Source: Streptomyces sp. NBC_01571
GTDB lineage: Bacteria > Actinomycetota > Actinomycetes > Streptomycetales > Streptomycetaceae
Reading direction: 5' to 3'
DNA: 64,000 bases
NCBI RefSeq assembly: GCF_026339875.1
Contig: NZ_JAPEPZ010000001.1
Location: 5,146,001 to 5,210,000 of the forward strand
Shown one piece after another: positions 10,733 to 46,018 of the stretch. The translations under genes and the position numbers were made by a program. How positions within the stretch are numbered: position 1 is the stretch's first letter; each line of letters begins with the position of its first letter. A model generated the notes under the pieces. The model had not been told where the DNA came from and ran no database searches. It worked only from the letters and a program-made list of their open reading frames with translations.

Positions 10733-12259
10733 TTACGGGCGACGGATGGCGTCAGCCGCGGCCGTGGCTGCGGGACCCGCGGCCAGCTCGGTCTCCAGGA
10801 GCTGCTTGCCGAGCAGCTCGGGGTCGGGAAGCTCCATCGGGTACTCGCCGTCGAAGCAGGCCCGGCACAGGTTCGGCTTGGCGATGGTCGTGGCCTCGAT
10901 CATCCCGTCGAGGGAGATGTACGAGAGGGAGTCGGCGCCGAGCGAGGTGCCGATCTCCTCGACGGTCATGCCGTTGGCGATCAGCTCGGCACGGGTCGCG
11001 AAGTCGATGCCGAAGAAGCAGGGCCACTTCACGGGCGGGGAGGAGATCCGGATGTGGACCTCGGCGGCTCCGGCCTCGCGGAGCATGCGCACCAGCGCGC
11101 GCTGGGTGTTGCCGCGGACGATCGAGTCGTCGACGACGACCAGCCGCTTCCCCTTGATGACTTCCTTGAGGGGATTCAGCTTCAGGCGGATGCCCAGCTG
11201 CCGGATGGTCTGCGAGGGCTGGATGAAGGTCCGGCCGACGTACGCGTTCTTGACCAGACCCGCGCCGAAGGGGATTCCGCTGGCCTCCGCGTAACCGATC
11301 GCGGCGGGCGTCCCGGACTCCGGAGTCGCTATCACCAGATCAGCCTCCACGGGGGCTTCCTTGGCGAGCTTGCGGCCCATCTCGACACGGGACAGGTACA
11401 CGTTCCGGCCGGCGATGTCCGTGTCGGGGCGGGCCAGGTAGACGTACTCGAAGACACAGCCCTTGGGCTTCGCTTCCGCGAAGCGCGAGGTGCGCAGGCC
11501 GTTCTCGTCGATGGCGACGAACTCGCCCGGCTCGATCTCGCGGACGTACGCGGCGCCGCAGATGTCGAGGGCGGCGGATTCGGAGGCGACCACCCAGCCG
11601 CGCTCCAGTCGGCCGAGGACCAGCGGGCGGATGCCCTGCGGGTCGCGCGCCGCGTAGAGGGTGTGCTCGTTCATGAAGACGAGGCTGAAGGCGCCCTTGA
11701 CCTGCGGGAGGACCTTCGCGGAGGCCTCTTCCACGGTGAGCGGCTTGCCGTCGTCGTCGACCTGGGCCGCGAGCAGCGCGGTGAGCAGGTCGGTGTCGTT
11801 GGTGGCGGCCACCCGGGTGGTGCGGCCGTCCTGCTTGGGGAGGTCGGCGACCATCTCGGCGAGCTGCGCCGTGTTGACCAGGTTGCCGTTGTGGCCGAGC
11901 GCGATGGAGCCGTGCGCGGTGGCACGGAACGTCGGCTGGGCGTTCTCCCAGACGGAGGCGCCGGTGGTCGAGTAGCGGGCGTGACCGACCGCGATATGAC
12001 CCTGGAGCGAACCGAGCGAGGTCTCGTCGAAGACCTGGGACACGAGGCCCATGTCCTTGAAGACGAGGATCTGGGAGCCGTTGCTGACCGCGATACCCGC
12101 GGATTCCTGGCCTCGATGCTGGAGGGCGTAGAGCCCGAAGTAAGTGAGCTTGGCGACCTCTTCACCGGGGGCCCAGACTCCGAAGACGCCGCAAGCGTCC
12201 TGGGGGCCTTTCTCGCCGGGGAGCAGATCATGATTGAGTCGACCGTCACCACGTGGCAC
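10733..12259 (-). CDS. purF: amidophosphoribosyltransferase
   Basis: A 508-residue enzyme for the committed purine step, PRPP plus glutamine to phosphoribosylamine. The N-terminal Ntn-glutaminase nucleophile is Cys23 in DACGVFGVW, so a 22-residue propeptide must be removed. The PRPP loop is VVVDDSIVRGNT. Four cysteines in GCVFEYVYL, WPCFFGIDF and CRACFDGEYP match the 4Fe-4S ligands of the B. subtilis-type enzyme. It forms a purF-purM pair. Confidence 0.96.
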   Translation of the reverse strand: MPRGDGRLNHDLLPGEKGPQDACGVFGVWAPGEEVAKLTYFGLYALQHRGQESAGIAVSNGSQILVFKDMGLVSQVFDETSLGSLQGHIAVGHARYSTTGASVWENAQPTFRATAHGSIALGHNGNLVNTAQLAEMVADLPKQDGRTTRVAATNDTDLLTALLAAQVDDDGKPLTVEEASAKVLPQVKGAFSLVFMNEHTLYAARDPQGIRPLVLGRLERGWVVASESAALDICGAAYVREIEPGEFVAIDENGLRTSRFAEAKPKGCVFEYVYLARPDTDIAGRNVYLSRVEMGRKLAKEAPVEADLVIATPESGTPAAIGYAEASGIPFGAGLVKNAYVGRTFIQPSQTIRQLGIRLKLNPLKEVIKGKRLVVVDDSIVRGNTQRALVRMLREAGAAEVHIRISSPPVKWPCFFGIDFATRAELIANGMTVEEIGTSLGADSLSYISLDGMIEATTIAKPNLCRACFDGEYPMELPDPELLGKQLLETELAAGPAATAAADAIRRP

Positions 12260-32112: not shown

Positions 32113-32200
32113 GGAGGATTCGCCTAGTGGCCTAGGGCGCACGCTTGGAAAGCGTGTTGGGGGCAACCCCTCACGAGTTCGAATCTCGTATCCTCCGCCA
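32113..32200 (+). tRNA. tRNA-Ser (anticodon GGA), integration target
   Basis: An 85-nt class II tRNA plus encoded CCA. The acceptor GGAGGAT pairs with ATCCTCC (32190-32196). The anticodon stem CACGC/GCGTG has the loop TTGGAAA with GGA at 32147-32149, and there is a long variable arm. Its last ten bases and the downstream 63 bp are duplicated at 34949-35021, and integrase remnants follow, marking it as an attachment site. Confidence 0.95.
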
Positions 32201-32263
32201 GTGCCTCACCGGGCACGACTCGAAGGGCCCCACCGTTCGCGGTGGGGCCCTTCGACGTTGTCC
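32191..32263 (+). repeat. 73-bp attachment-type direct repeat, copy A
   Basis: It starts inside the 3' end of tRNA-Ser (TCCTCCGCCA) and includes a 15-bp TTCG-loop hairpin (32221-32235 with 32240-32254). It matches 34949-35021 at 71 of 73 positions. Together they bound about 2.76 kb, as the two ends of an integrated element would. Confidence 0.9.
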
Positions 32264-33080
32264 TCAGCCCTCGTTGTCCTGGTTTTTGTCCACAGCGGGT
32301 TCCTCCGCAGGTCCCCAGATCGCTTCGGCGATCTTCCGAGCGACGTCCTTGAACACTGCGTCGGGCACATGCAGGTACCGCGCCCGCATACTCGCGGACG
32401 TACCCGGCTCCCACCCCATGATCTGATCAATGACGCGGGACGGACACCGAGCAGCATGAGAACGGTCGCGGCCGTGTGACGTGCGTCATGCAGCCGCCCG
32501 TCCCGTACCCCGCGTCCTCCAGCAGTCGCTTCCAGTCGTGATAGTCCGTGTTCGGACTCAGCGGGCCCCCAAGCAGCTTGGTGAACACTTAGTCCGACTC
32601 GGCCCACAGGTCGCCGGACGCCTTACGCTCACGCTCCTGCGTCTCGCGGTGCGCACGGAGCATGACGACCAGCGGGCCCGGCAGGGGCACGGCTCGCCGG
32701 CCTGCCCGGGACTTGGTGTTCTTGGTCTCGCGCCGGACCTGCACCTTGGCAGGGCAGTACCCCGCCTTCCGGCCGCACGGCGAGGCTTCCGGGCACCCGT
32801 GCTCGTAGCGGGGCGGAGACGGTTCCGGCGCAGTTTCAGGTACTCGTTGTCCAGGTCGACGTCAGACCAGCGCAGTCCGAGCGTCTCGCCCCTGCCGCAG
32901 TCCGAGCGCCAGTGCCGGCATCCAGAGCGCGCTGTTCCGGCGCTTGTTGGCTTTGAGCAGCAGGCACTGAACCTCTTCCAGGGAGTAGGGCTCCACCTCG
33001 GATTCGTCCTCCTCCAGCCGCGGTCGGCGCGCCGCAGCACACCGCCTCCACCACGGCGGATCACCTGCTTGCCCACCTCA
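32264..33080 (-). pseudogene. decayed tyrosine-recombinase integrase (remnant 1)
   Basis: On the minus strand, pieces in three frames line up with the intact integrase at 58232-59512. An upstream piece reads EVQCLLLKANKRRNSALWMP then ALALGLRQGR; next come a Cys/His segment (YEHGC, CGRKAGYCPAK) and KNTKSRAGRRAVPLPGPLVV. The catalytic HxxR box is in DGRLHDARHTAATVLMLLGV, and the Tyr box in SMRARYLHVPDAVF near the end. At least one in-frame stop (within DLWAESD*VFTKLLG) and several frameshifts separate them, and the N-terminal arm-binding domain is missing. It is non-functional. It lies directly beside the tRNA-Ser attachment site in the usual orientation. Confidence 0.85.
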
Positions 33081-33520
33081 GGAGAAGATCACGAAGACCT
33101 GGAAGATCCTCCGCGGCTGTCGGCTGAAGGGCGACGGAATCCCACCGCGCCATGATTGGCATCGCCCGTCTCCACAACCTTGCCCTCACCGGATGAACGA
33201 GCGTGCCGGACCTCGACCGACCACGCTCACACCGACTCGAAGATTGATTACGGGACAACGCTCAGCCATGGCGGGTGTGCCCACAAATCCCACGTGGACG
33301 GCGGTACACGACCGTGCTGCACGCGCGTACGGATCACAGGACCGAGTTCGTGGTCGGGTAGCGGCTGGTCGGTGGATCGCGGGCGGTATGACGGTGTGTC
33401 TGTAGGGCCGCGCAGGGCGGGTGTGGCTTGATCGTCGGGCGGTCCCGGCAGGGGCCTGAACATCAACCGACGTCCGTGGCACGTGCGGAGTGCCACGCTC
33501 TTTGTCGAGGAGTCCCCATC
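33081..33520. other. gap with no gene recognised
   Basis: About 440 bp inside the decayed element between the integrase remnant and the glycine-rich protein gene. It has somewhat lower GC than the core genome. I see no credible gene; it should contain the promoter for the gene at 33521. Confidence 0.45.
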
Positions 33521-34795
33521 GTGAGACCGACCCTGCAACATGTCATGTTCCCTCGACGTGGCGCGGGAGCCGCGGGTGAGCGGCGGCGCCCGGCCAGGCG
33601 TGCTGCCGTCCTGTTCGCCGCGGTGGCGCTGCCGGCGGCCCTGGTGGTGCCCTCGGCCACGCCCGCCGCAGCGGCGGTGCCCGTGACGGTCACCTTCAAC
33701 ACGGGCGCCGACCAGCCCTTCACCGTCCCGGCCGGCGTCACCCAACTGACCGTCACCGCCACAGGCGCCGCAGGACAAAACGGGACCAACGGCGGCACAG
33801 CCGGCAACGGCGCCACCGTCACCGGCACCGTCACGGTGCCGCCGAGCACCACCACCCTGTATGTCAACGTCGGCACGGGCGGGGGCGTCGGCGGCGGATC
33901 GGCGACTACGGGCGGTGCCGGCGGCGGTTCCAGCGATGTCCGCACCTGCAGCTCGGCCGGCCCCGGCTGCACCCTGACCGGCGTTCCCGGCACCGACCCC
34001 CGCCTCATCGTCGCGGGCGGCGGAGGTGGCGGCGGAAGCGGCTACTCCTCCCTCCTCAACCCGGAGGCCACCGGCGGAAACGCCGGAATCACCGGGGGGG
34101 CCGGCGGCAGCAGAACGAACAGCGGCCAGGGCGGCGGCGGCGGAACCCAGACCGCCGGCGGCGCAGGCGGAGCCGCATGCCCCTTTTCCGGTGGTACATC
34201 CGGCACTCCGGGCACGGGCGGTGCGGGCGGCAACGGCGGAGGCGGCTTCGGGGCGGGCGGAGGCGGGGGCGGCTGGTTCGGTGGCGGCGGCGGCGGAGGC
34301 TGCAACCGTATTGATTTTCCTCCCGCTTTCGGTCCCGGTGGTGGCGGTGGTGCGTCGAACCGCGTCCCCACGGGTGGCACCTCCGGACCTGCCGCGGGAG
34401 CGGCCAAGGTGACCATCACCTACGAGCCGGTGCCCCCCACCTGCGCGACCGCCACGCCGACCATCACCGGCACCAACGGCAACAACGTCCTGATCGGCAC
34501 TCCCGGCGATGACGTGATCTTCGGCCTCGGCGGCAACGACGTGGTCGACGGCCGCGGTGGCAACGACATCATCTGCGGCGGCGACGGCAACGACTCCCTC
34601 ACCGGCGGCGACGGCAACGACCGCATCGAAGGCGGCAACGGCACCGACACCCTGAACGGCGGGAATGGCAACGACGCCCTCTTCGGCGGTCCCGGCAACG
34701 ACGCCCTCTTCGGCGGCACCGGCACCAACACCAACGACGGCGGCACCGGCACCAACGCCTGCTTCAACCCCTCCACCGGACCCGGCTGCTTCTGA
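33521..34795 (+). CDS. secreted glycine-rich protein with RTX-type calcium-binding repeats
   Basis: A 424-residue exported protein. GTG 33521 has GAGGAG 8 bp upstream. A basic N-terminus (RRRPARR) and hydrophobic core up to about residue 52 (ending TPAAAA) form a signal peptide. Residues 55-300 are a Gly/Thr-rich beta-type domain with long GGGGG runs and an isolated Cys pair. Residues 325-402 hold about eight nonapeptide repeats of the GGxGxDxLx type ([20 protein letters not shown]), which would fold into a calcium-binding parallel beta-roll. It lies between the two copies of the 73-bp repeat and so looks like cargo of the dead element. Role may be adhesive or matrix-like; no enzymatic domain is visible. 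Confidence 0.88.
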
Positions 34796-34948
34796 CCCCG
34801 CACACGCCTCCGACCTGATCGACGAACATCAGAAACGGGCCCCGGCACATCCCTCGTCACAGCGGCGACCCACGCACGAGGCCCGTTTCAACACTTCGTC
34901 CATCCGAGGAGAGGAAGCCTGCTCGCATACGGAGCCGAGTCCAGAGGC

Positions 34949-35021
34949 TCCTCCGCCAGTGCCTCACCGGGCACGACTCGAAGGGCCCCACCGTTCGCAC
35001 TGGGGCCCTTCGACGTTGTCC
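34949..35021 (+). repeat. 73-bp attachment-type direct repeat, copy B
   Basis: A near-perfect duplicate of 32191-32263 (two mismatches in the hairpin loop side, GG to AC). It is preceded by a degraded tRNA 3' end (CGAGTCC, then CTCCTCCGCCA), as expected of an att site at the distal end of an inserted element. Confidence 0.9.
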
Positions 35022-35370
35022 GTCTCGGTTTCGGTCTCGGTTTCCGTCTCGACCGGCATTTCCTTCGGCTCCGGACGGCTCCCGGAGAGCCTGTCCGACC
35101 TGCCACGCGGCCTTCCGGCACATCGGGCCCGTGACGCGCGTGTACCGAGCGCTCATCCGGGCCGCTCCTCCGGGCTCCCGTCCCATGATCGCGTCGGCCA
35201 CGACGTCCGGGACGCCAAGGATCAGGAGCACGGTCGCCGCCGTGTGACGAGCGTCATGCAGCGGTCCACCCCGAACGCCCGGTGAGGCGAAGACGGACCC
35301 CTCGCCCTCGCCGTCCGCACCGGCCGCGATCCGCTCGCGACGGGCCCGCTCCCCGTCGGGCGGTAACGGC
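35022..35370 (-). pseudogene. C-terminal fragment of a second integrase (remnant 2)
   Basis: A minus-strand reading frame contains PLHDARHTAATVLLILGVPD (HxxR box) and MSARYTRVTGPM (catalytic Tyr) in one frame, followed by LREPSGAEG. This is the last third of a tyrosine recombinase closely related to the one at 58232. The core-binding domain and first catalytic Arg are absent upstream. It follows attachment copy B just as remnant 1 follows copy A, so it belongs to a separate, earlier insertion. Confidence 0.8.
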
Positions 35371-35565
35371 CTTCCGTCCGCACGAGCAGTCCCCATAAAC
35401 GTGCGCGGTACTTGGCCCGTTCCGCGATCAAGATCGATACATCTCGATATGGCCAGAAATACGAAGTGCCGCCACGCTGAGCAACGACTCCAGAGGTGGC
35501 GAACCGCCTCTCTCCGAGGTCCGTCTCATGGCTTCCCTCCGGCTGCGCGGTTCGGTTCCGCCTTC

Positions 35566-36006
35566 TCAGCTCAGTTGCTCGGCCAGTCCGACGATGATGC
35601 CCTCCGGGCCGCGGAGGTAGCAGAGCAGATAGCTGCCCTCGAACCGGGCGATCTCGCCGACGAGTTCGGCGCCGTGAGGGCGCAGGCGGGCAACGGTGTC
35701 CTCGATGTCGTCGACGGCGAACATGACGCGGTGCGTGCCGAGAATGTTGTGCGGCCGGTTGCGCGGCCCGGCACTGATCACCGCGGGGCTGCGGTACTTC
35801 GCCAGCTCGAGCCGGCTGTGCCCGTCCGGGGTCCGGACCATGGCGATGTCGCAGTGGACGCCGTCGAGTCCGGTGCACCGGTCGGCGAAGGGGCCCTCGA
35901 CCTCCGCCCTGCCCTCCAGCTCCAGGCCGAGTTCCACGAAGAACGCGATGGCGGCATCCAAGTCCTCGACGACGATGCCGACGTTGTCCATCCGCTGAAT
36001 CGCCAT
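35566..36006 (-). CDS. VOC-superfamily (glyoxalase-like) protein
   Basis: A 146-residue protein with two beta-alpha-beta-beta-beta modules: MAIQRMDNVGIVVEDLDAAI then RVMFAVDDIEDTVARLRPHG with a final EGSYLLCYLRGPEGIIVGLA. The last Glu of GPEG and other VOC metal-ligand positions are present, but only His/Glu candidates, not a full glyoxalase I set, can be named with certainty. ATG 36006 has AAGGAGAG upstream. Function could be dioxygenase, lyase or antibiotic-binding resistance; unresolved. It sits among element remnants. Confidence 0.85.
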   Translation of the reverse strand: MAIQRMDNVGIVVEDLDAAIAFFVELGLELEGRAEVEGPFADRCTGLDGVHCDIAMVRTPDGHSRLELAKYRSPAVISAGPRNRPHNILGTHRVMFAVDDIEDTVARLRPHGAELVGEIARFEGSYLLCYLRGPEGIIVGLAEQLS

Positions 36007-36420
36007 GCTGCTCTCTCCTTCTTCCTCGTACGGCCGGGTGGCCGCTGATGTCCCTGGGACGGAGCGGGTGGCACGCTCTCGACATCCACAGACCGCCGAA
36101 CTCCGAACTTCATTCGCAGCGGGCGGCACGGCGGACGCCCGTATGGGGTCCGCGCCTCTCGCTCTGAGCCGGATCAAGGAGCAGGGGACGAGCCGGCGGG
36201 GCCCCGCGGCGCCGCGGGCGCGTCTCAGGACGCCCACGACCATCCCTTGACCCTTCACAGGCGCGGTCATGACCGCGCATTCATCCCGTCTTCACCTGCG
36301 GTGATGCGTCTTTGACAGGATTCTCAACGGGCCTGTGAACGTCGGGAGTTCCGAGCGTCCGGGCTCGCTGCCCGCCCAGCGGATTCACATCGCCTCCCCT
36401 ATCGACCGTTAAGGACACGA
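36007..36420. other. intergenic region between divergent VOC and LAETG genes
   Basis: A 414-bp gap holding promoters for both divergent genes. I see no RNA gene and no strong palindrome. Confidence 0.45.
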
Positions 36421-37110
36421 GTGTTCCCTCCCCGTCACACCGCCAGAGCGGCACGCGTCATAGGCACCTTCGGCGCCGCGGCCGCACTCTCCATCGGTAT
36501 CGCTGACACGGCGTTGGCATGCAGTATCAGCGACTTCTCGGCAGCGGCCGTGTGCGACGCGGGCGGCACCGGCGTCATCCGCGTCACCGACCGGGACGGC
36601 TCCGGCACCCCGGCCACCGTCAAGCTGTACCTGCAGCTGAACATGCCCGGCGGCGAGCGGCTCGTCGACACCAGGACCATCGAGCACCCGACCGCGCAGG
36701 GCGTATCCGTCGATCTCACTCCCTCGGACTGGTACCCAGGGGGGACCTACCGGGTTCACGTCAAGGCGGGCGACCAGGTCGACGACGACATCCAGCCGAT
36801 GACCGTCATCCCGGATGAAACCTGCGCGCCCTCCACCCCCTCCTCCTCGGCGTCCGCCACTACGCCCACGCAGCCCTCCTCGCCGTCCTCCACCGCCCCG
36901 GCCGCGACGCCGAGCCCGGCGCAGAGCAGCAGCGCAGCCGCCGCGCCGGGTGCGAGCAGCGCCCCGACCCCCGCGGGCGGCAGCTCCGGCCTTGCCGAGA
37001 CCGGCGCGGGCAGCGGCACCACCGTGATCGCCGGCGCCGCCGCGGCCCTGGTCGTGACCGGCGGTGGCATGGTCGTTGCGTTGCGCCGCCGAGCGGTACG
37101 CGGCTCCTGA
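36421..37110 (+). CDS. LAETG-type sortase-anchored surface protein
   Basis: A 229-residue exported protein. The signal peptide runs to about residue 34 (ALSIGIADTALA); an N-terminal globular domain of about 100 residues has three cysteines (CSISDFSAAAVCDAGG, DETC). A Ser/Thr/Pro-rich stalk spans 140-185, the sorting motif LAETG is at 191-195, then a hydrophobic helix and RRR tail. LAXTG is the motif read by class E sortases of Streptomyces, so the protein should be linked to the cell wall. GTG start with AAGGAC upstream. Ligand unknown. Confidence 0.88.
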   Translation: MFPPRHTARAARVIGTFGAAAALSIGIADTALACSISDFSAAAVCDAGGTGVIRVTDRDGSGTPATVKLYLQLNMPGGERLVDTRTIEHPTAQGVSVDLTPSDWYPGGTYRVHVKAGDQVDDDIQPMTVIPDETCAPSTPSSSASATTPTQPSSPSSTAPAATPSPAQSSSAAAAPGASSAPTPAGGSSGLAETGAGSGTTVIAGAAAALVVTGGGMVVALRRRAVRGS

Positions 37111-37208
37111 CGGCACCTGCTCCCTCTTGAGGCCGAAGCACGATCGAGCGGCTGGGACCGGGCGGCGGCCGGCCTCATCGCGCCGGTAAGCGAGCCGGCT
37201 CCCGTCTC

Positions 37209-37262
37209 GGTCGGGCCCCGCCGTCCGCGGCGGGGCCCTTCGACGTTGCCCGTCCCGGGTTC
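37209..37262. repeat. third copy of the element-end hairpin (footprint 3)
   Basis: An 11-bp stem GGGCCCCGCCG (37213-37223) with its complement (37228-37238) is followed by CTTCGACGTTG, as in copies A and B, then CCGTC and GGTTCCGTCTC as in the DNA after copy B. It marks a third, older element end. Confidence 0.75.
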
Positions 37263-37266
37263 CGTC

Positions 37267-37827
37267 TCAGCTGGTTCTCTCTTCGGCTCCGGGCGACTCC
37301 CAGCGGGCCTGTCCTGGCACTTCGGTACGTAGCCAACGAGCAAGCACGGAGAAATCGGTCTCGGTGAGGCCCTCGGCCGGGTCGACACGGTGGAGCAGTG
37401 AGGGTCCTGGGTGCTGCGCGGCGACCCAGAGTCGGTCCACGGCGCTGATCTCGTCGTCGACCCAGATGAAGGGGCGGTGACCGGCCCACTCCACGAGGGG
37501 GCGCGTCTTCCAGTGCAGGCCGTGCGGGCCGACGTCGGTGGAGGGCTCGGGCCACTCCACGACCGGCAGCCTGGGCAGGCCGATCCGCGCGGCGACGGAC
37601 TCGTTGGCCTCCTCTATCCATGTAGAGGCCCACACCAGATCGCATCCGAGCGCCATCAGGCGCGGCCCGAGGGCGCGGTCGAGCCGTCCGAGCAGTGGGT
37701 TCCCCCCGTCGGGGACCGCTCCGGGGCCGGAAGCGGGAGCCTGAAGCCCGCCGGGCGACGCACCGAACGGGATGAGCGGTCCGTCGACGTCCAGGAAGAG
37801 GATGGGGCGCTCCACCGAGTGGGTCAC
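37267..37827 (-). CDS. HAD-like hydrolase with an integrase-derived C-terminal tail
   Basis: A 186-residue protein of the HAD superfamily type: motif I FLDVDGPLIPFG with Asp13 and Asp15, motif II-like WASTWIEEAN, and late acidic motif IWVDDE. Such small proteins dephosphorylate or act on unknown substrates. GTG 37827 is the start. The last 18 residues, VPGQARWESPGAEERTS, do not look like an HAD end but closely match the C-terminal WESPGAGP of the intact integrase at 58232, and footprint 3 lies just downstream. I infer that an insertion/deletion fused the gene to an integrase 3' end, replacing its own terminus. Confidence 0.8.
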   Translation of the reverse strand: MTHSVERPILFLDVDGPLIPFGASPGGLQAPASGPGAVPDGGNPLLGRLDRALGPRLMALGCDLVWASTWIEEANESVAARIGLPRLPVVEWPEPSTDVGPHGLHWKTRPLVEWAGHRPFIWVDDEISAVDRLWVAAQHPGPSLLHRVDPAEGLTETDFSVLARWLRTEVPGQARWESPGAEERTS

Positions 37828-38178
37828 GGCTGCACGATAGCCCTGCGTGGCAGAGCGTCAGCGCCCATGTCGGCGTGTGCGGGGGCCTCTCCGCCTGGGC
37901 GCCTTGCCTCCTTGCCGCCCGAGCGCCCGGCCGACTCGCCCGCCTCGCCGCCTCGGCCGAAGAACGTACACAGCACAGCGTGAGGTTGTCGCCCGCCGAG
38001 GGGCGTCCGGCCAGATCACCTGACGGCCGGTCTGCCGACGGGAGGTCCACGGCGTACCCGCTTCCCGTCGACTCCGTCCGCCGCGAGCGCATCCACGGCG
38101 GCCCCCGGCGGCGAATGAGCCCGGGCGCGCAGGTGCTCACGTCCGTCCCGACCACGAGAACGGCCCGTTCACTCAGCC
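37828..38178. other. gap with no gene recognised
   Basis: A 351-bp gap between divergent genes. The minus strand has an open frame with SAGDNLTLC-like text but no start signal or recognised family, so I do not call a gene. Confidence 0.4.
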
Positions 38179-38238
38179 ATGTACGACGAGAACACCCGTC
38201 AACTGTCCGTGACCTGGCCGCCGGGGGCGCCTCGATGA
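38179..38238 (+). CDS. 19-residue leader-type ORF, translationally coupled
   Basis: ATG 38179 opens MYDENTRQLSVTWPPGAPR and its TGA overlaps the ATG of the next gene (ATGA at 38235-38238). No good ribosome binding site precedes it. It may be a leader peptide controlling the next gene, or coincidental. Confidence 0.35.
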   Translation: MYDENTRQLSVTWPPGAPR

Positions 38239-38636
38239 AGGGAATCGTCCGCGGCTACTGGTGCGAGTGCCGGACCGAGGACCTCGCCGCGGGCGGTCCG
38301 CCGGCGCTGCTCGCGTCGATGGACGCCTACTCGGCCGCGCAGGCCGACCGGTGGATGGCGGTCGCCCTGCGCACCATCACACCGGCGCTCGGACCCGCCG
38401 CGGCGGACGAGGCCTGGGACTGGCTGTACGACGGCCGCATCGAGATGCGCCAGGCCCTGCTGCGCTCGGAACCGTGTTCGGTGTCGGTCGACAACAAGGC
38501 CACCCGGCTCACCTGGACCGCCCGCCCCGTCCTCTTCCTGCCCCTCGCGCACCGCGAGGGGGCGGGCTCTCCGGACTGCGCCGCCAGGCGCACCCCCGGC
38601 ACCGGCCGTCCGCATCCCCGTCCCCGTCCCCTGTAG
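38235..38636 (+). CDS. conserved hypothetical protein at the head of the lipid cluster
   Basis: A 133-residue soluble protein of no family I can name. An N-terminal MKGIVRGYWCECRTEDLAAG is followed by a helical region (AQADRWMAVALRTITPALG) and a basic beta-like segment (SVSVDNKATRLTWTARPVLF). The last 25 residues are Pro/Arg-rich and may be non-native. It may be the first gene of the same plus-strand transcript as the WS/DGAT-like gene, 184 bp downstream. Confidence 0.55.
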   Translation: MKGIVRGYWCECRTEDLAAGGPPALLASMDAYSAAQADRWMAVALRTITPALGPAAADEAWDWLYDGRIEMRQALLRSEPCSVSVDNKATRLTWTARPVLFLPLAHREGAGSPDCAARRTPGTGRPHPRPRPL

Positions 38637-38785
38637 GAACCTGCCCGGTACGGACGTACGGGGACTTGAAGGACCGCCCCGCGCGGGACCGGCGCCGGCG
38701 AGTACGCGCGAGGCGCGCCGTGACCTTTCCGCCACGCGCCCTGTTAGCGACTCTGCCCGCCGCCACCTGCGCCAGGGAAGCCCTC

Positions 38786-38824
38786 ATGACGATGACCAGG
38801 CCGTGTCCGGCGGTGTACCCGTGA
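38786..38824 (+). promoter_or_regulatory. 12-codon upstream ORF coupled to the WS/DGAT-like gene
   Basis: ATG 38786 has a good AGGGAAG ribosome binding site and encodes MTMTRPCPAVYP. Its TGA overlaps the GTG start of the acyltransferase (GTGA at 38821-38824). This arrangement decides the choice of start for the next gene and suggests translational coupling. Confidence 0.45.
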
Positions 38825-40227
38825 CCACGACGGTTCCGAGCCCCAACGCGGTCGACGGCTGCTTCCTCAGCTACGAGCGGGACGAGCCCCGGTTCCGGCC
38901 CTATGTCGGGGCGGTCCTGGAGGTGACCGGCTCCTGCCCGGGTCCGGGCCCGGTGCGCGAGCAGATCGCCGACCGCGTGGACCGCATGCCGAGCCTCGCC
39001 TGCAGGGTCACCCGGCAGGGCCGCCGGACGGTCTGGGAGCTCGATCCCGGCTTCGACCCGCGCCGCCATGTGCACGAGATCGTCGTGGAGGAGGGCCTCC
39101 CCTCGCTCGGCCGGGCCGTGGACGCGCTGCTCGGTGAGCCGATCGGCGCCGGCGCGCCCCGCTGGGGGGTCTGGCTCATCCACGGCTACTCCCCCGACGC
39201 ATACGCGCTGTTCTACCGCGCCCACCACGCCGCCCAGGACGGCCAGGCGGTGCTGGACGCGCTCACGACCCTGTTCGGGGTGGGTCCCGCCGTTCCTCCC
39301 CGCCAGGCCGTGGACGAAGCGATCGGCGGCCGTGGCACCGGCGGGGCACGGGACCCGCTCGCGTGGGTGAGGAACATCCCGGCGCGGGCGATCGCGCAGA
39401 ACGCGGCCGACACCGTACGCGGTCTGCGGTCCACCCTGACGTGGGCGCCGCACCGCCCCCTCACCGGCCGGACCCGGCTGCTGTCGGCGGCCGTGCCGGT
39501 GTCCTGGCCCCGGGACGTCGCGAAGGCCCTCGGGGCCACGCCCAACGACGTCTGTCTGGCCGCGCTGGCGGAGGCGGTACGGGACTGGGTGCCCGAGGAG
39601 TGGCGGGCCCGCCCCGGGCGCGGCCGGGAGCTGCACGTGGGAATGCCGGTCAGTCTCCGCCGGCCGGAGGAGCGGTTCGCGGTGGGCAACAGGGTCTCCG
39701 CGGTGCGCGTTCCGCTGTCCTACTGGGCGAAGTCGCCCGCCGACCGGGTGGTCGCCGTCGCCCGCGCGACCCGCCGGGTCAGGACCGAGGGAATGCGCCG
39801 GGTACTGCGGGCACAGCTGGAGTGCCTTCCGCAGTGGCTCGTCTACCGCTTCGTCCGGCAGTCCTGTGCCGCGAGCAGCGCGGTGGACACCTCCGGGCTG
39901 CTGCGCGTTCCCCGCCGGCTGGCGGTCGGGGCGGATCCGGTCGAGGGGGTGGTGCCCACCCTGTTCCTGCACGGCGACCACCTCTTCGCGGTGTCGTTCC
40001 TCTCCTACCAGGGACGGGTCCGGGTGAGCTTCACCGTCGACCGGGCACTGGACGACGTCGGTGATCTCGCCGCCCTGTGGGCCGGAGCCGTCGAGCGGCT
40101 GTGGCGCGACGTCACCGTCAGCCCCGCCGACCCCCTGGGCCCTGCCGGTCACGCCGGTCACGCCGGTCACGCCGGTCACGCCGGTCACAGAGATTCGTAC
40201 GCGTCCCGTACCGGGGAGAACTCATGA
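38821..40227 (+). CDS. WS/DGAT-like acyltransferase
   Basis: A 468-residue member of the wax ester synthase/diacylglycerol acyltransferase family, related to condensation-type acyltransferases. The active-site motif HHAAQDG (HHxxxDG) is at residues 135-141. The C-terminal half has GMPVSLRRPEERFAVGNRVS, like the conserved VPVSTR and NxxS regions of the family. Known members join an acyl-CoA (or thioester) to an alcohol. It overlaps the SDR gene by 4 bp (ATGA). The last 30 residues contain five GHA repeats from a 9-bp minisatellite (GCCGGTCAC, 40144-40188). The start was chosen at the GTG coupled to the small upstream ORF; GTG 38803 is an alternative. Confidence 0.85.
   Translation: MTTTVPSPNAVDGCFLSYERDEPRFRPYVGAVLEVTGSCPGPGPVREQIADRVDRMPSLACRVTRQGRRTVWELDPGFDPRRHVHEIVVEEGLPSLGRAVDALLGEPIGAGAPRWGVWLIHGYSPDAYALFYRAHHAAQDGQAVLDALTTLFGVGPAVPPRQAVDEAIGGRGTGGARDPLAWVRNIPARAIAQNAADTVRGLRSTLTWAPHRPLTGRTRLLSAAVPVSWPRDVAKALGATPNDVCLAALAEAVRDWVPEEWRARPGRGRELHVGMPVSLRRPEERFAVGNRVSAVRVPLSYWAKSPADRVVAVARATRRVRTEGMRRVLRAQLECLPQWLVYRFVRQSCAASSAVDTSGLLRVPRRLAVGADPVEGVVPTLFLHGDHLFAVSFLSYQGRVRVSFTVDRALDDVGDLAALWAGAVERLWRDVTVSPADPLGPAGHAGHAGHAGHAGHRDSYASRTGENS
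40144..40188. repeat. five tandem 9-bp repeats within the acyltransferase 3' end
   Basis: GCCGGTCAC occurs five times without interruption and encodes a Gly-His-Ala tract. It is in frame and likely length-variable. Confidence 0.92.
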
Positions 40228-41144
40228 GCACGACCGGCCGTGAAGGGTCCACCGCCCTGGTCACCGGCGCCAGTTACGGCATCGGCGCCGACATCGCCCG
40301 CGCCCTCGCCGCCCGCGGCCACCACCTCGTCCTGGTGGCCCGCAGCGCCGATCCCCTGGACCGGCTCGCGGCCGCCCTCGAAGCCGAGTACGGGATCGGT
40401 GCCCGCCCGCTGGCCGCCGACCTGAGCACCGAGGCCGGCATGGAGCTGGCCGCCGCGCACGCGGGCGACGCCGACATCCTCGTCAACAACGCCGGTGCGG
40501 GACTCGGCCTGTCCTTCGAGCGCACGGCGTGGGAGGAGGAGCGGCGGATGCTCGCCCTCAACGTCGTGGCCCCCTCCCGGCTCGTCCACGCGGCGCTGCC
40601 CGGAATGCTCGGCCGGGGCCGCGGACGAATCCTGAACGTCTCCTCGGTGGCCGCCACCGCGCCGGTCTGGCAGGGCACTTCCTACGGCGCCTCGAAGGCG
40701 TACGCCCTGGCGCTGACCGAGTCGCTGGCCCACACGCGCCGTATCCGCAGCTCGCCGGTGGCGCTGACCGCCCTCGTACTGGGGCACACCGTCTCGGAGT
40801 TCCACGAGCGGGCCGGTATCCCGCCGTCCCCTCCGTCGCTCACCCTCGCCTCGCCGTACGTCGCCGAGCGGGCGGTGCGGGCCATCCTCCGGCGCCGCCC
40901 GCCCGTCGTCTGCGTGCCGAGCGTCCGCTACAAACTGCTGGCCGGGCTGCTGCGTCATCTCCCGCGCCGGGTCGTCGCCCTGCCCCACCTGGCCGACGAC
41001 TTCACCGTCACCTCGTACGAGGCGCCACGCCCGCCGTACGGGGCCGGGGAGCCGCGGACCGGCGGGCGGGAGTCAGCCTGGGGTGACGGCCAGGACGGCG
41101 TTCTGCCCGCCGAAGCCCACGGACAGCGAGAGCGCCAGCCCTAG
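40224..41144 (+). CDS. short-chain dehydrogenase/reductase (ketosphinganine-reductase-like position)
   Basis: A 306-residue classical SDR: cofactor loop TGASYGIG (residues 14-21) with following Arg (VARS) suggesting NADPH, NNAG (88-91), catalytic Ser140/141, Tyr154 and Lys158 (SYGASK). A C-terminal hydrophobic/basic region (KLLAGLLRHLPRRVVALPHL) may touch the membrane, as in reductases of lipid ketones. It could reduce the ketone made by the nearby alpha-oxoamine synthase. ATG 40224 overlaps the preceding stop. The 3' end overlaps the convergent KS gene by 72 bp, so the last residues may be a recent extension. Confidence 0.87.
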   Translation: MSTTGREGSTALVTGASYGIGADIARALAARGHHLVLVARSADPLDRLAAALEAEYGIGARPLAADLSTEAGMELAAAHAGDADILVNNAGAGLGLSFERTAWEEERRMLALNVVAPSRLVHAALPGMLGRGRGRILNVSSVAATAPVWQGTSYGASKAYALALTESLAHTRRIRSSPVALTALVLGHTVSEFHERAGIPPSPPSLTLASPYVAERAVRAILRRRPPVVCVPSVRYKLLAGLLRHLPRRVVALPHLADDFTVTSYEAPRPPYGAGEPRTGGRESAWGDGQDGVLPAEAHGQRERQP

Positions 41145-42293
41145 CCTTCCCCGGCGGCTCCCGGTCGGGATGTCGAGGTCGATCGCCGGATCGGGTTCCT
41201 CCAGGTTGGCCGTGGGCGGAACGAGACCCTGTTCGACGGCGAGAACGGTGAACGCCGCCTCCACCGCGCCCGCCGCTCCCAGCAGGTGCCCGGTCACCGG
41301 CTTGGTGGACGTCACCGGCGGGCGGTGCGGGAAGAGCCCGGCCAGCACAGCGGCCTCCGCCCGGTCGCCGGCCGGGGTCCCGGTGCCGTGGGCGTTGACG
41401 TGGGTCACGTCGCGCGCGCTCGCGCCGGCCTGTGCGAGGGCCTCGCGGACGGCCGTGCCGAGTCCCGTGCCGTCGGGATGAGGCCGCACCACGTGGTGCG
41501 CGTCCGAGGAGGCGCCGTAACCCGTGATCCGGGCGCGGGTCCGGGCACCGCGGGCCCGGGCGTCGGCGGTGCGCTCCAGGACCAGCATCCCGGCCCCCTC
41601 GCCGATGACGAAGCCGTCCCGCCGCCGGTCGAAGGCGCGCGGCGCTCCGGTGGGGTCGTCGAAGCGGTGGGACAGCGCGCCGATCCGGTCGAACCCGGCG
41701 ACGTAGAACGGTGTGATGGCGGCGTCGGCGCCACCGGCCAGCGCGATGTCGCACCGGTCCAGGGTCAGCAGGTCCCGTGCCATGCCGAGGGCGGTCGCAC
41801 CCGACGCGCAGGCGGTGTTGACCGTGCAACTGGCGCCCGAGGCACCGAACTCGATGGTCAGCTGGGCGGCCAGGGAGTTGCCCAGGGCGGCGGGCACCGC
41901 GTACGGCGACATGTCCTGCGGGCCGGCCGCCAGCAGCGCGCGGTGCTCGGACTCCAGGGTCTGGGCGCCGCCGGTGCCGGAGCCCACGATCACCGCGACG
42001 CGCGCGCCGTCCCACCGCGCCGGGTCCAGCCGGGCGTCGGCCAGCGCCTCCCGCGCGGCGAGCAGGGCCAGCTGCGCGCAGCGGTCGGGCCTGCGCGCCC
42101 GGGCCCCGCCGAGCCGGACCGGGTCGAAGCCGCCCACCCGGCAGGCCAGGTGGGCCGGAAACGTCTCCTGCTCCCCCGCCAGTACGGCGGTCGGCAGTCC
42201 CTTGCAGACCCGCTCCCAGCCGGGGGCCCAGCCGTCGCCGGCCGGGGTCACCAGTCCGAGGCCCGTGACGCAGACATCCTGTCGCCCGGTCAT
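41073..42293 (-). CDS. beta-ketoacyl-ACP synthase II-like (FabF-type) KS
   Basis: A 406-residue thiolase-fold condensing enzyme with a full catalytic set: Cys162 (NTACASG), His302 (NAHGTGT), Lys331 and His336 (TSTKPVTGHLLGA). It lacks the Gln-for-Cys change of chain-length factors. It should carry out decarboxylative condensation on ACP-bound acyl chains. Paired with its own ACP gene 7 bp upstream, it is probably dedicated to a specialised lipid, not primary fatty acid synthesis. It overlaps the SDR gene at the 3' end. Confidence 0.92.
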   Translation of the reverse strand: MTGRQDVCVTGLGLVTPAGDGWAPGWERVCKGLPTAVLAGEQETFPAHLACRVGGFDPVRLGGARARRPDRCAQLALLAAREALADARLDPARWDGARVAVIVGSGTGGAQTLESEHRALLAAGPQDMSPYAVPAALGNSLAAQLTIEFGASGASCTVNTACASGATALGMARDLLTLDRCDIALAGGADAAITPFYVAGFDRIGALSHRFDDPTGAPRAFDRRRDGFVIGEGAGMLVLERTADARARGARTRARITGYGASSDAHHVVRPHPDGTGLGTAVREALAQAGASARDVTHVNAHGTGTPAGDRAEAAVLAGLFPHRPPVTSTKPVTGHLLGAAGAVEAAFTVLAVEQGLVPPTANLEEPDPAIDLDIPTGSRRGRLGLALSLSVGFGGQNAVLAVTPG

Positions 42294-42300
42294 ACGGAGG

Positions 42301-42519
42301 TCACCTGGCTCCGACGAGGGCGGCCACGTCCGCGACGGTGTGGGTGGCGCCGATCTCCTCCTCCGTCACCGCCACCCCTTTCTCGCGGCGCAGGACCAGG
42401 GCCAGTTCGACGACGGCGATGGAATCCAGGCCCGCTTCCTCGCGCGTGGCGTCCGGGCTGATGTCATCCTCGGAAAGCCCAAGAGAAACAAGAACGTTTT
42501 TGAGTTCTTCGTATGACAC
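42301..42519 (-). CDS. acyl carrier protein
   Basis: A 72-residue ACP. The phosphopantetheine Ser is in AGLDSIAVVELA (DSI motif), flanked by an acidic helix I and helix III (TEEEIGATHTVADVAALVGA). GTG 42519 has GGAG upstream. It is co-transcribed with the KS. It probably carries the acyl chain offered to the KS and to the alpha-oxoamine synthase encoded divergently 18 bp away. Confidence 0.92.
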   Translation of the reverse strand: MSYEELKNVLVSLGLSEDDISPDATREEAGLDSIAVVELALVLRREKGVAVTEEEIGATHTVADVAALVGAR

Positions 42520-42537
42520 TTTTTCTCCGTCGCGTGG

Positions 42538-43971
42538 ATGGCAGAGCAGACACCTCAAAGTACCATCTCCAAGGGAACCGAATTCTCCGAGAGAATTAAT
42601 GCGACAGGCGAGCGATGGGCGAACGCAGGAATGGATATTCTGGAAAAGTGCCGGCCGTGGACCGCGGAGCATCTGCGGGCGACGGGACGGGACTGCTACT
42701 TCCGGGCGATCGGCGACACGTTCGACGGCACGGAGGCCGATTTCGAGGGCCGTCGGGTGATCGTCGCGGCCTCTCACGACTACCTGGGCCTCTCCGCGGA
42801 GCCCCGGGTGCGTGAGGCCGCCGTCGCCGCCGTACGGCGCTTCGGCACCTCGCTGGGAGGGTCCCGGGCGGTGAGCGGCTCGCTGGAACTGCACGAGGAA
42901 CTGGAGAACGATCTGGCGGCGTTCCTGGGCCACGAGGCGGCCGCCGTTCTTCCCTCCGGATATCAGGCGAATTTGATGCTCGCCCCTCTCCTCGGGGACG
43001 GGGACACGGTATTCAGCGACTTTTCCAATCATGTTTCACTGGAAGAGGCCGTCCGTCTCGGCAGGGCGAACGAACGCAAATTCCTGCACGGCAACCTCGA
43101 TCACCTGGAGGAATTGCTCAGCACCGCCGACGGAATCGGAAACGGAAACGGAGGAGCCGGAACCCGAGGGGACGGAAGCGGAACCGGCGGGAAATTGATC
43201 CTCACGGACGGGGTCTTCTCGGTGGACGGGGACGTCTGCGACCTTCCCGGCCTCATGAAGCTGGCGGACGCCCACGGAGCACGGGTCGTCGTCGACAGCT
43301 CGCACGACCTCGGGGTGCTCGGCCCGACCGGAGCCGGCGCCGGCGAGCACTTCGGACTGCGTCCGGACCTTGTCACCAGCGCCCTGTCCAAAAGCCTGGC
43401 CTCGGTGGGCGGGGTGATCGCCGGCCCCGCCGACGTGATCCGCTATCTGCGGTTCCACGCGCGGACGGCGCTGTTCACCGCGGCGGCCTCACCGGCCAAC
43501 GTCGCCGCCGCGCTGGCCGCGCTGCGGCTCCTGCGCGCCGAACCCGAACGGCGCGTACGGGTCTTGGATCTCGCCGAGCGGCTGCACAACGGCCTGCGCG
43601 CGCTCGGCTTCGACACCGGGGCGTCCGTCACGCCGGTGGTGCCGGTGCTGGTGCCGGGGCGCGAGCAGTGCATGCGCATGTGGCGGGAGCTGTTCGAGGC
43701 CGGAGTGTTCGCCGCGCCCATGGTCCACCCGGTCGTCAGGACCGGCCGTGAGGTGCTGCGGATCACCCTCACCGCCGCGCACACCGATGACCAACTCGCG
43801 CGGGTCCTGGCCGCGTTCGAGCACGTGGGCCGCGTCGAGGGGGTCATCCCCGGCTCCGCGCCGGCCTCGCACACCCCGGTACGGATCGCCCGCCCGCGCG
43901 GCCCGCGGACACTGACCGCCACGCACGACGGGAGGCCCCTCGGTGCGGGGGTGCGGCGGCCCACCCCTTAG
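42538..43971 (+). CDS. PLP-dependent alpha-oxoamine synthase, serine palmitoyltransferase-like
   Basis: A 477-residue fold-type I PLP enzyme. Key residues: His165 (FSNHVSLEEA) stacking on PLP, Asp253 and His256 (VVVDSSHDLGVLG), and Schiff-base Lys285 (SALSKSLASVGG). The C-terminus, MWRELFEAGVFAAPMVHPVV then HTDDQLARVLAAFEHVGRVE, resembles bacterial serine palmitoyltransferase more than KBL or BioF. It should condense an acyl thioester with an amino acid, releasing CO2, to an alpha-aminoketone. Oddities: Thr before the lysine motif is Ala (SALSK), and a Gly/Asn-rich insertion occupies residues 197-218. ATG 42538 is only 18 bp from the ACP start; ATG 42631, preceded by AGGA, is an alternative. 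Confidence 0.88.
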   Translation: MAEQTPQSTISKGTEFSERINATGERWANAGMDILEKCRPWTAEHLRATGRDCYFRAIGDTFDGTEADFEGRRVIVAASHDYLGLSAEPRVREAAVAAVRRFGTSLGGSRAVSGSLELHEELENDLAAFLGHEAAAVLPSGYQANLMLAPLLGDGDTVFSDFSNHVSLEEAVRLGRANERKFLHGNLDHLEELLSTADGIGNGNGGAGTRGDGSGTGGKLILTDGVFSVDGDVCDLPGLMKLADAHGARVVVDSSHDLGVLGPTGAGAGEHFGLRPDLVTSALSKSLASVGGVIAGPADVIRYLRFHARTALFTAAASPANVAAALAALRLLRAEPERRVRVLDLAERLHNGLRALGFDTGASVTPVVPVLVPGREQCMRMWRELFEAGVFAAPMVHPVVRTGREVLRITLTAAHTDDQLARVLAAFEHVGRVEGVIPGSAPASHTPVRIARPRGPRTLTATHDGRPLGAGVRRPTP

Positions 43972-44029
43972 GCGGCGGACGTACTTCTCAGGCGGGGGAC
44001 GTACCCGGTGCCGTTCCCGGTGCCGCGGA

Positions 44030-46018
44030 TCAGCCGATCCTCACGGTCTTCGAGACGGTGACCTGGTCGATGTCGGTGGTGCGGACCGTCGCCTTCATCG
44101 TCCAGGTGCCGGCCACCGGGAGGGTGACGCCGTCGGCCCCCCAGTAGCCGCCCCGGTTCGCCAGTTCCGCGTCGATCGGGCCGATCCGCTGGGACTCCAG
44201 GGTGAAGGTGAGGCGCAGTTCGGGCACGGTCGCGATCCCTCCGTCGGGGCCGAAGATCACGGCCTGCACGGAGTTCTCGCCCACCCGGCCCGGTGCCAGT
44301 TCGATCTGCACCTTGCCGTGACCACCCGGTGTGCCCACGTCGAACGGAATGATCGTCGCGGCCCCCGCCGACTGCCCCGCGGCCGCGGTTGCCGAGGCCG
44401 CGGCGGCCTCGGTGGCCGCCCGGCCCGGCTGGGTCCCCGTGAGCAGGGTGGTGATCACCAGTACGACGATGCCGACGGTGACCTCGGCCAGGACCGAGCC
44501 CCGCAGGGCCCGCCGGTAGCGGGCGGTCTCGTCGGAAGGAGGCGCGTCCGGACCCGGGCCCGCACCCGGACTGCCGGAGGTGCCCTCCGCGTCGGCCGCA
44601 CCGTCGTCGGCGCCGGCGGACGCGCCACCCGTCGTCGAAGCGCCGGACGACACGACCCCGGAGCCGGTCCCGCTGCCGTCCGCGACGACCGGTGCCCCGC
44701 CGCTGCCCACGACCGCCGGCGCCCCGACGGTCTCCGGCACGCGCTCGGCCACCGCCACCGCCACCGCGGCGCGCTCCTGCGCCGCCGCCATCAGCCGGCC
44801 CGCCCAGCGTCGCGAGTACGCCGCCCCCGCCAGCAGGCACAGCACCGCGATCAGCTTGGCGACGAGGATGCGGCCGTACGAGGTCGAGGTGAGGGCGTCC
44901 CAGGAGCCGAGGCCGCGCCAGGACTGGTAGACGCCCGTGACGACCAGGACGGCGACGGAGGCGAGGGCGAGCCGGGAGAAGCGGTTGACGGTGGCCGCGG
45001 GGAGCGGTTCGGCCGACCGGTACAGCGCGGTCAGCAGCGCCGTCAGTCCGCCCAGCCACACCGCCATGGACAGCAGGTGCAGGACGGAGGAGACCATCGC
45101 GACGGGTACCTGGACGCCGGCGGACGCGTGCTCGGCGGCGGCCCAGGTGACGGCGAGGGAGACGGTGAGCAGCGCGCCGAGCGCGAGGACGCCGCGCTCC
45201 CTCCGGTCCGCGCGTACCGGGTAGAAGGCCACCGCCGCCAGCAGCACCAGCCGGGCCAGCAGGGTGAGACCCGGCCTGCTGACCAGTGTCTCGTTCAGGA
45301 CGGACGGGTCGAGGGCGTCCGCGGGGCCGCTGCCGCGTTCGTAGGGGCCCCGCAGCAGGAGCAGCGCGAAGGTCGAAAGGAACAGCGTCCACCAGCCCGC
45401 GAGGAGCAGTCGCCGTACCGGGCCCGGGAATCCGCAGACCAGGACGAAGGCGGCGGCCCCGATGAGCAGGGCGAGACCGCCGTACGCGACATAGCGCGCG
45501 AGGTCGTAGAGCGTGGCGGAGACCTTGTCCCCGGCGGGGTCGACGGGGACCGGCGCGACGGTCGCGGAGGGTTTGCCGATGGAGAAGGTGAAGGCGCCGG
45601 AGACCGGATGGCTGTCCGCCGAGACGACCCGCCAGGCCACGGTGAAGGTGCCGGTGCCGAGGCCCTTGGGCAGGGTCACGCGGGCGGTGTCCGACCGTCC
45701 GTCCGCGTGCCCCGGCTCGCCGGTGTGGACGCGCCGGTTGTCCGGGTCCAGCACGCGGAAGGAGTCGTCGAGGAGCCCGACCGACTCGGTGAACGTCAGG
45801 GTCACCTGGCGGGGAGCCGTCTTCAGCACGCTGCCGTCCTGGGGATCGGCACCGGTCAGCGCCGCGTGGGCGGACGCGCCGCCCACACCGCCGAAGAGGA
45901 CCAGAACCAGCACCGTGCCCAGCAGGGCCAGGCCCCGGGCCACGCGCCGTCGCTCCCGTCGCTCCCGCTGTCCTCGTCCGCTCACACGCCGTCTCCGTCT
46001 CCGCGTTTCCCGAGTCAC
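44030..46018 (-). CDS. copper-resistance CopC-CopD fusion with C-terminal YtkA/FixH-like domain
   Basis: A 662-residue membrane protein. After a basic N-terminus and signal helix (to about residue 50) comes a CopC domain with mature N-terminal His (AHAALTGADPQDGSVL) and ADSHPVSGAFTF, giving the Cu(II) histidine brace. About eight CopD transmembrane helices follow (residues 170-420), then a low-complexity Ala/Gly/Ser linker, one more helix and an exterior Ig-like domain (PELRLTFTLESQRIGPIDAE). It probably imports or binds copper at the membrane. The start codon is uncertain (GTG 46018 has no clear ribosome binding site). It lies 30 bp after the GNAT gene and may be in the same transcript. Confidence 0.9.
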   Translation of the reverse strand: MTRETRRRRRRVSGRGQRERRERRRVARGLALLGTVLVLVLFGGVGGASAHAALTGADPQDGSVLKTAPRQVTLTFTESVGLLDDSFRVLDPDNRRVHTGEPGHADGRSDTARVTLPKGLGTGTFTVAWRVVSADSHPVSGAFTFSIGKPSATVAPVPVDPAGDKVSATLYDLARYVAYGGLALLIGAAAFVLVCGFPGPVRRLLLAGWWTLFLSTFALLLLRGPYERGSGPADALDPSVLNETLVSRPGLTLLARLVLLAAVAFYPVRADRRERGVLALGALLTVSLAVTWAAAEHASAGVQVPVAMVSSVLHLLSMAVWLGGLTALLTALYRSAEPLPAATVNRFSRLALASVAVLVVTGVYQSWRGLGSWDALTSTSYGRILVAKLIAVLCLLAGAAYSRRWAGRLMAAAQERAAVAVAVAERVPETVGAPAVVGSGGAPVVADGSGTGSGVVSSGASTTGGASAGADDGAADAEGTSGSPGAGPGPDAPPSDETARYRRALRGSVLAEVTVGIVVLVITTLLTGTQPGRAATEAAAASATAAAGQSAGAATIIPFDVGTPGGHGKVQIELAPGRVGENSVQAVIFGPDGGIATVPELRLTFTLESQRIGPIDAELANRGGYWGADGVTLPVAGTWTMKATVRTTDIDQVTVSKTVRIG

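Follow-up and report, generated by a model that had tools for sequence, protein, structure and literature searches.

A candidate two-module variant of the bacterial sphingoid-type lipid gene clusters in Streptomyces sp. NBC_01571

The described bacterial systems closest to the locus reported here are, in the excerpts of the reports cited, the ceramide pathway with serine palmitoyltransferase (SPT), bCerS and CerR (PMC11087976), the SgaA–SgaB–SgaC system of Pseudomonas fluorescens (PMC12134224) and the AcpR/AasR-dependent SPT of Rhodobacteria (PMC9386255). Ketosphinganine is reduced in Bacteroides by the short-chain dehydrogenase/reductase (SDR) BT_0972 (excerpt of PMC9278070), and the SDR PfSgaC has been proposed for ketosphinganine reduction in the SgaABC system; the same excerpt (PMC12134224) treats actinobacterial sphingolipids as predicted, not described, and cites several actinobacteria with the potential. 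We analysed five genes at positions 38821–43971 of a 64 000-nucleotide stretch (the window) of the 11.5 Mb genome of Streptomyces sp. NBC_01571 (G000). They encode a WS/DGAT-like acyltransferase, an SDR, a FabF-like beta-ketoacyl-ACP synthase (KS), an acyl carrier protein (ACP) and an alpha-oxoamine synthase (AOS), and we provisionally file the set (the cassette) as a variant of the bacterial sphingoid-type lipid clusters. We consider it somewhat probable that the cassette encodes a two-module lipid pathway, with the AOS and SDR as one module and the ACP, KS and WS/DGAT-like enzyme as the other, the reactions, substrates and product being predicted from sequence.

With SgaA–SgaB–SgaC the cassette has in common an SPT-like AOS, an SDR (described for that system as homologous to ketosphinganine reductase) and a ketosynthase system dedicated to chain building. 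However, the chain builder there is one iterative type I polyketide synthase (PKS), whereas the cassette has a discrete FabF-like KS and an ACP, whose nearest relatives accompany WS/DGAT-like genes (comparison with the excerpted PMC12134224); no monomodular type I PKS lies beside the window AOS, where the discrete KS and ACP were the only such components. The cassette also includes a WS/DGAT-like acyltransferase, of which the excerpt makes no mention for SgaA–SgaB–SgaC. An ACP gene adjoining an SPT-like gene is shared with the AcpR/AasR-dependent system as excerpted from PMC9386255, but the cassette has a KS in place of the acyl-ACP synthetase and the nearest ACP relatives that we found belong to another type of cluster. 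No description of the five-gene set was found in the open-licence literature searched, which is weak evidence of absence.

All five genes are complete. Those of the HHxxxDG acyltransferase (38821–40227, plus strand, 468 residues) and the SDR (40221–41144, plus strand, 307 residues), the proposed ketone reductase, lie on one strand with frames that overlap by 7 nt. The SDR gene converges with the KS gene (41073–42293, minus strand, 406 residues) in a tail-to-tail overlap of 72 nt, a value that is the same in the related locus L004. The ACP gene (42301–42519, minus strand, 72 residues with a GLDSI serine) is located upstream of the KS gene on the same strand, with a gap of 7 nt, and adjoins the divergent AOS gene (42538–43971 as drawn, plus strand, 477 residues). 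Translation of the AOS more likely starts at 42631, giving 446 residues, because three relatives read MDVL at the equivalent point, where the window AOS reads MDIL; with this start, the divergent ACP/AOS intergenic region would span 42520–42630. Residue positions below follow the 477-residue numbering. A single operon is ruled out by the three strand blocks with their convergent and divergent junctions. No sigma-70-type consensus and no promoter- or terminator-like signals were found in 38000–44500.

The first-pass annotation of this DNA, made from the sequence alone, had named these five genes and a set of active-site residues, all of which are present; every product was confirmed by Pfam models over cut-off. 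The WS/DGAT-like protein scores 57.6 bits with WS_DGAT_cat (PF03007; cut-off 23.6) and 37.5 bits with WS_DGAT_C (PF06974, over cut-off). Its catalytic domain and HHAAQDG motif (at position 135, retained in all five cassette copies) place it in the HHxxxDG superfamily of WS/DGAT and PapA/condensation acyltransferases, with both WS/DGAT domains, although it remains far below the cut-off of TIGR02946 (wax ester/triacylglycerol synthase proper; 142.5 versus 309.95 bits). PapA5 of the same superfamily presumably uses carrier-bound acyl groups. PDB matches of the WS/DGAT-like protein are weak only (6chj and 7nxg), and an AlphaFold2 model from five sequences has a mean predicted local distance difference test score of 42.3 and a predicted template-modelling score of 0.40. 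The KS scores 155.7 bits with ketoacyl-synt and 118 bits with the C-terminal domain and is assigned to the FabF subfamily by a complete Cys-His-His site (C162, H302, K331 and H336) together with a score over the cut-off of NF005589 (398 versus 387); it is below that of the narrower equivalog TIGR03150 (403 versus 493.75). The ACP scores 39.5 bits with PP-binding and the SDR 126 bits with adh_short. The SDR motifs TGASYGIG, NNAG, S and YGASK comprise the GxxxGxG, Ser and YxxxK elements, which define SDRs generally rather than ketosphinganine reductase activity; the best NCBIfam model, mycolate reductase, is below its cut-off (133 versus 380 bits). The annotation had also held that every chemical step is encoded. 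This was too strong: no acyl-activating enzyme, malonyl-loading function or dedicated set for beta-carbon reduction was noticed among the called genes.

The five genes recur, with order and orientation unchanged, in three other genomes: Kitasatospora sp. GAS204B (locus L004, recurring as L032; genome G165), a second genome of the same genus group (L033; G177) and one of the genus group of the window (L126; G490), the last of which carries a second WS/DGAT-like gene. Recurrence of homologues had been set beforehand as a test that could refute the proposed pathway, and the pathway came through it. Identities to the window are 72–76% for the AOS, 71–78% for the KS, 72–75% for the ACP (in L004, L033 and L126), 50–70% for the SDR and 60% for the WS/DGAT-like protein (L004 and L033 included), with 54% for the second copy. 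All five genes are under purifying selection, the ratio of nonsynonymous to synonymous substitution rates being 0.14–0.43 in all 17 gene-by-pair comparisons. The called neighbours beyond the five genes, compared by clustering in the window, L032 and L033 and from the gene calls in L126, differ apart from a cytochrome P450 common to L004, L033 and L126. These P450s were considered as members of the P450 group of the AOS-GNAT operons described below and rejected, since those of L004 and L033 are only 28–39% identical to its members and that of L126 is 30% identical to one of these members; with a single P450 group from the terpenoid clusters described below, the L004 and L033 proteins share 36–43% identity. 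A second SDR in L126 overlaps the end of the P450 frame. The 11.5 Mb genome of the window has two WS/DGAT matches over the Pfam cut-off and three AOS-family matches at E ≤ 1e-5. Chance adjacency of the five genes is not a reasonable account. A reading as chance neighbours, or as two unrelated small units, could appeal to the three strand blocks, to a related locus (L127) with part of the set only and to the nature of the host segment as an insertion hotspot; we consider it very unlikely, given that four genomes with otherwise differing called neighbours (save the P450 common to three) preserve the gene order and orientation, that all five genes are under purifying selection and that the 11.5 Mb genome has only two WS/DGAT matches over cut-off.

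The AOS scores 150.9 bits with Aminotran_1_2, over the Pfam cut-off, and its residues H165, D253, H256 and K285 are each invariant in 38 aligned AOS sequences, which identifies it as an AOS family member. Its best PDB match is a bacterial SPT (8guh/3a2b, 259 bits). A tree of 38 rows groups the five cassette-type AOS in a single clade (100/100), which sits in a clade of 24 rows (99/98) with no resolved branching within the 24. The AOS joins the SPTs 8guh and 2x8u before the AONS/KBL entry 8s1y and the paralogues L050 and L051 of the window genome, with support of 88/96 (not starred) in a tree rooted on L051 with partial reference rows and long branches. An SDR accompanies the AOS in all five cassette-type loci and in none of the 19 sister AOS loci, so that the AOS–SDR pairing proposed at first pass is retained throughout, with one SDR copy degenerate. 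The fifth locus, L127, keeps the AOS and SDR and has no KS, ACP or WS/DGAT match in the fetched 20 kb, the part of that genome that was searched. Here, the SDR, the AOS, a flavin/2Fe-2S reductase and a membrane fatty-acid desaturase run in one direction (6501–11593), and their possible product is a desaturated sphingoid-type base. L127 branches first in the cassette AOS clade (the remaining four group at 99/96), so that the AOS and SDR may have been paired before the acyl module (ACP, KS and WS/DGAT-like gene) joined them.

The relatives of the KS point to a different association for the second module. A search of 394 genomes returned 34 KS places at E ≤ 1e-130, of which 19 (the window and 18 stretches of 16–20 kb, leaving out 15) were compared by neighbourhood; these 19 include three cassettes. 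Beside each of the eight closest non-cassette KS (64–74% identity) lie an ACP gene and a WS/DGAT-like match, and in no case an AOS match. These eight loci (L062 and L095–L101) are drimane-type terpenoid clusters, with a DXDD-containing protein of the cyclase cluster in 8/8, a gene of the Nudix cluster in 7/8 and one of the P450 cluster in 7/8 (Pfam assignments from the members in L095). In the next eight KS loci (59–62% identity) the ACP is again present in 8/8 and a WS/DGAT match in 0/8. The four cassette KS group together (99/97) within a 12-row clade that they share with the eight terpenoid-cluster KS (100/100), and the cassette ACP is 46–62% identical to the terpenoid-cluster ACPs versus 36–48% elsewhere. 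In their DXDD class II cyclase-like, Nudix and P450 components the eight clusters resemble the cav drimane cluster of Streptomyces clavuligerus, although they carry the nearest non-cassette ACP-KS that we found, whereas the cav genes listed in the excerpt of PMC11035983 include no ACP, KS or WS/DGAT. Their composition suggests that they make fatty-acyl drimane esters, of which no description was found in the open-licence literature searched. The clusters, centred at about 9–11 kb of each stretch, occur in several genera of Streptomycetaceae; no terpene cyclase, Nudix or P450 gene is present among the called genes of the window near the cassette. Another KS/ACP group (L063, L102 and L104) is accompanied by genes that cluster as KAS III, as class III aminotransferase and as weakly AurF-like (Pfam assignments from L063).

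The two-module reading is preferred because, in the loci seen, this KS/ACP clade always occurs with a WS/DGAT-like gene, whether or not an AOS is present, and the cassette-type AOS always occurs with an SDR, whether or not a KS and ACP are present. In the proposed pathway, the AOS would catalyse the decarboxylative condensation of an amino acid with a long-chain acyl thioester to give an alpha-amino ketone, which the SDR would reduce to a sphingoid-like amino alcohol in the role of a ketosphinganine reductase. On the ACP encoded beside it, the KS would build or lengthen an acyl chain with the help of host fatty-acid enzymes, and the HHxxxDG acyltransferase would move this chain onto a hydroxyl (or the amine) of the amino alcohol. 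The predicted product is a lipid with two chains, ceramide-like or of the O-acyl-sphingoid type, formed without the GNAT and NAD-epimerase that accompany most related AOS genes. Alternatively, the KS and ACP could supply the AOS itself with its acyl chain, as a type II counterpart of SgaA feeding SgaB or of AcpR feeding SPT, and the second chain would then come from an ordinary acyl-CoA used by the WS/DGAT-like enzyme. The ACP gene does adjoin the AOS gene, divergently, and a KS/ACP pair is also present near the AOS of a second lineage; moreover, SPT in Rhodobacteria prefers a specialized ACP as its substrate (excerpt of PMC9386255), and the AOS of P. fluorescens MYb115 receives its chain from a PKS (excerpt of PMC12134224). 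We nevertheless regard this arrangement as doubtful: L127 has the AOS and SDR with no KS/ACP in its fetched 20 kb, the nearest KS/ACP pairs sit with a WS/DGAT gene and no AOS match in 8/8 terpenoid clusters and no acyl-ACP synthetase was noticed among the called genes, although no search was aimed at it. The first-pass lipid hypothesis is strengthened; its wiring of the KS and ACP to the AOS, against which L127 and the terpenoid-cluster pairs speak, is revised as the less likely option.

Several observations weigh against the two-module reading. The five genes of the window are split into the three strand blocks WS/DGAT-SDR (forward), KS-ACP (reverse) and AOS (forward); the P450 present in three of the four five-gene loci (L004, L033 and L126) is absent from the window; and the SDR of L126 (12257–12889) is degenerate, with much of its nucleotide-binding region gone. 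The WS/DGAT proteins of the cassette and the terpenoid clusters are only ∼30% identical, and therefore the genes of the second module may not have travelled together; a WS/DGAT-like gene is also found by KS loci outside the close clade (L067 and L068, with 51% KS identity). The cassette type is rare, its AOS being found in five genomes (the window, G165, G177, G490 and G475). AOS matches were obtained in 19 of 394 genomes of the family (E ≤ 1e-80), two of 70 of the Kitasatospora group (E ≤ 1e-125), 13 of 392 of the genus group of the window (E ≤ 1e-95; the window, G490 and G475 are far above the rest, at E ≤ 1e-170) and one of 345 across the class (E ≤ 1e-95; the window itself), in overlapping samples of which those of 394, 392 and 345 genomes were scored on the four best candidates per genome. 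The AOS is below all curated NCBIfam cut-offs, none of the SPT models being reached (NF047600, 310 versus 640; NF047599, 283 versus 500; NF047603, 215 versus 670), and bioF at 314.2 is slightly above the best of them. Position 80 is His in all five cassette-type AOS versus Asn in 18/19 sisters and 13/14 others.

The description of the AOS as SPT-like in the first-pass annotation agrees with its best PDB match and, less firmly, with the tree, in which the fork that joins it with SPT before AONS/KBL (88/96, not starred) depends on the root chosen; it falls short with respect to the curated SPT models. Position 80 aligns with an Asn that we take to be near the substrate carboxylate in AONS, and because its change to His is clade-wide, the amino acid substrate may be other than serine. 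The cassette-type AOS also have Ser113, where 10/19 sisters have Asn, and Ser255, where 19/19 sisters and 13/14 others have Ala. Clade-wide changes at or near conserved motifs, such as Asn-to-His at 80 and Ser-Ser at 254–255, would suit an AOS that makes a small or non-serine aminoketone (BioF-like, from alanine or another amino acid), which the acyl module would then esterify to a diffusible natural product or signal, a secondary metabolite and not a membrane lipid. The top NCBIfam score of bioF, the patchy distribution over five genomes, the accessory insertion site and the kinship of the KS with terpenoid clusters agree with this account, which we nonetheless judge unlikely: the tree and PDB search put the AOS nearer to SPT than to AONS/KBL, and a desaturase by one related AOS and fatty-acid hydroxylase-type genes by three others suggest long chains. 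An off-loaded product of the prodiginine type, the alternative offered at first pass, found no positive support, the window AOS being a stand-alone protein.

The 19 sister AOS rows have a different company. Within 7 kb, a GNAT gene is present in 18/19 and an NAD-epimerase gene in 17/19, with a PapA/condensation-like gene in 11, one P450 group in eight and a fatty-acid hydroxylase-type gene in three (Pfam was run on one or two examples of each family). The pattern resembles that of SPT, ceramide synthase and ceramide reductase, the possible bCerS and CerR identities following from fold families and the excerpted PMC11087976 and PMC12134224. Compared with the ceramide pathway (PMC11087976, as excerpted), the cassette AOS belongs to the same Streptomycetaceae-centred clade as the AOS of the GNAT-epimerase operons, whose putative bCerS and CerR are assigned by fold family, but no GNAT or NAD-epimerase gene is present at up to 7 kb from the AOS in any of the five cassette-type loci, which have an SDR (5/5) and a WS/DGAT-like gene (four loci) instead. 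This range is what was covered for both genes in G490 and G475 and for the epimerase in every genome; for the GNAT, the whole genomes G000, G165 and G177 gave no match at E ≤ 1e-10, a search that could miss a diverged enzyme and that hit both of two other genomes, one of them the query's own. The AOS-GNAT operons (L028, L034–L044 and L128–L132), nearly all with the NAD-epimerase, occur in Streptomycetaceae, that of L028 on a 666-kb Streptomyces plasmid.

We tentatively propose, as a possible though not favoured extension, that the cassette is a chimaeric, ceramide-synthase-independent route of actinomycetes to two-chain sphingoid lipids. A sphingoid module from the lineage of the ceramide-type operons would have been combined with a portable acyl module (ACP-KS-WS/DGAT), which in other clusters would decorate drimane-type terpenoids, and the products would be O- or N-acyl amino-alcohol lipids of a class not yet described. 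In a separate AOS lineage (L036, L038, L041 and L129), the AOS is accompanied in 4/4 loci by a WS/DGAT-like gene together with a KS/ACP pair that is more distant, which suggests that the combination was assembled more than once. These clusters, with AOS, GNAT, epimerase, KS, ACP and WS/DGAT, were rejected as direct ancestors of the cassette, since their KS is 51–52% identical to that of the window and groups elsewhere in the KS tree (from which L129 was absent); they appear to be a separate assembly of similar parts. Two Kitasatospora-group genomes with the cassette also contain a KS, two ACP-like small proteins and an acyl-activating-like protein of ∼600 residues near another WS/DGAT-like gene (L067, 7236–12424; L068, 6034–11141), all but the KS judged by eye.

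If the proposal is correct, a set without the usual ceramide synthase and reductase would be a second way of finishing sphingolipids, and ACP-KS-WS/DGAT would be a reusable unit for making and attaching acyl groups, with an amino alcohol as the acceptor here and a terpenoid alcohol in the drimane-type clusters. The prediction is cheap to test because the genes are few and are found in culturable genera.

The cassette lies in a variable site of the window (32113–44030), between dnaX/tRNA-Ser(gga) and a CopC/CopD copper gene (44030–45943, from Pfam and NCBIfam profiles). A search for the CopCD gene in 31 relatives gave ten genomes with a match, of which two of the same genus (G402 and G009) were taken for comparison; in both, dnaX and tRNA-Ser are retained on one flank and the CopCD-to-tadA block is retained on the other, without any of the nine window genes tested (34409–43971, ACP excepted) between those flanks. 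From the two genomes compared, the segment looks like an accessory insertion by tRNA-Ser, in line with the accessory island proposed at first pass. On the other side from CopCD, the five genes are adjoined by an unassigned frame of 133 residues (38235–38636). Elsewhere in the window, 34409–34795 encodes a 128-residue protein composed mostly of RTX-type calcium-binding repeats (PF00353) and 36421–37110 encodes an LAETG-type sortase-dependent surface protein (NF041528, over cut-off).

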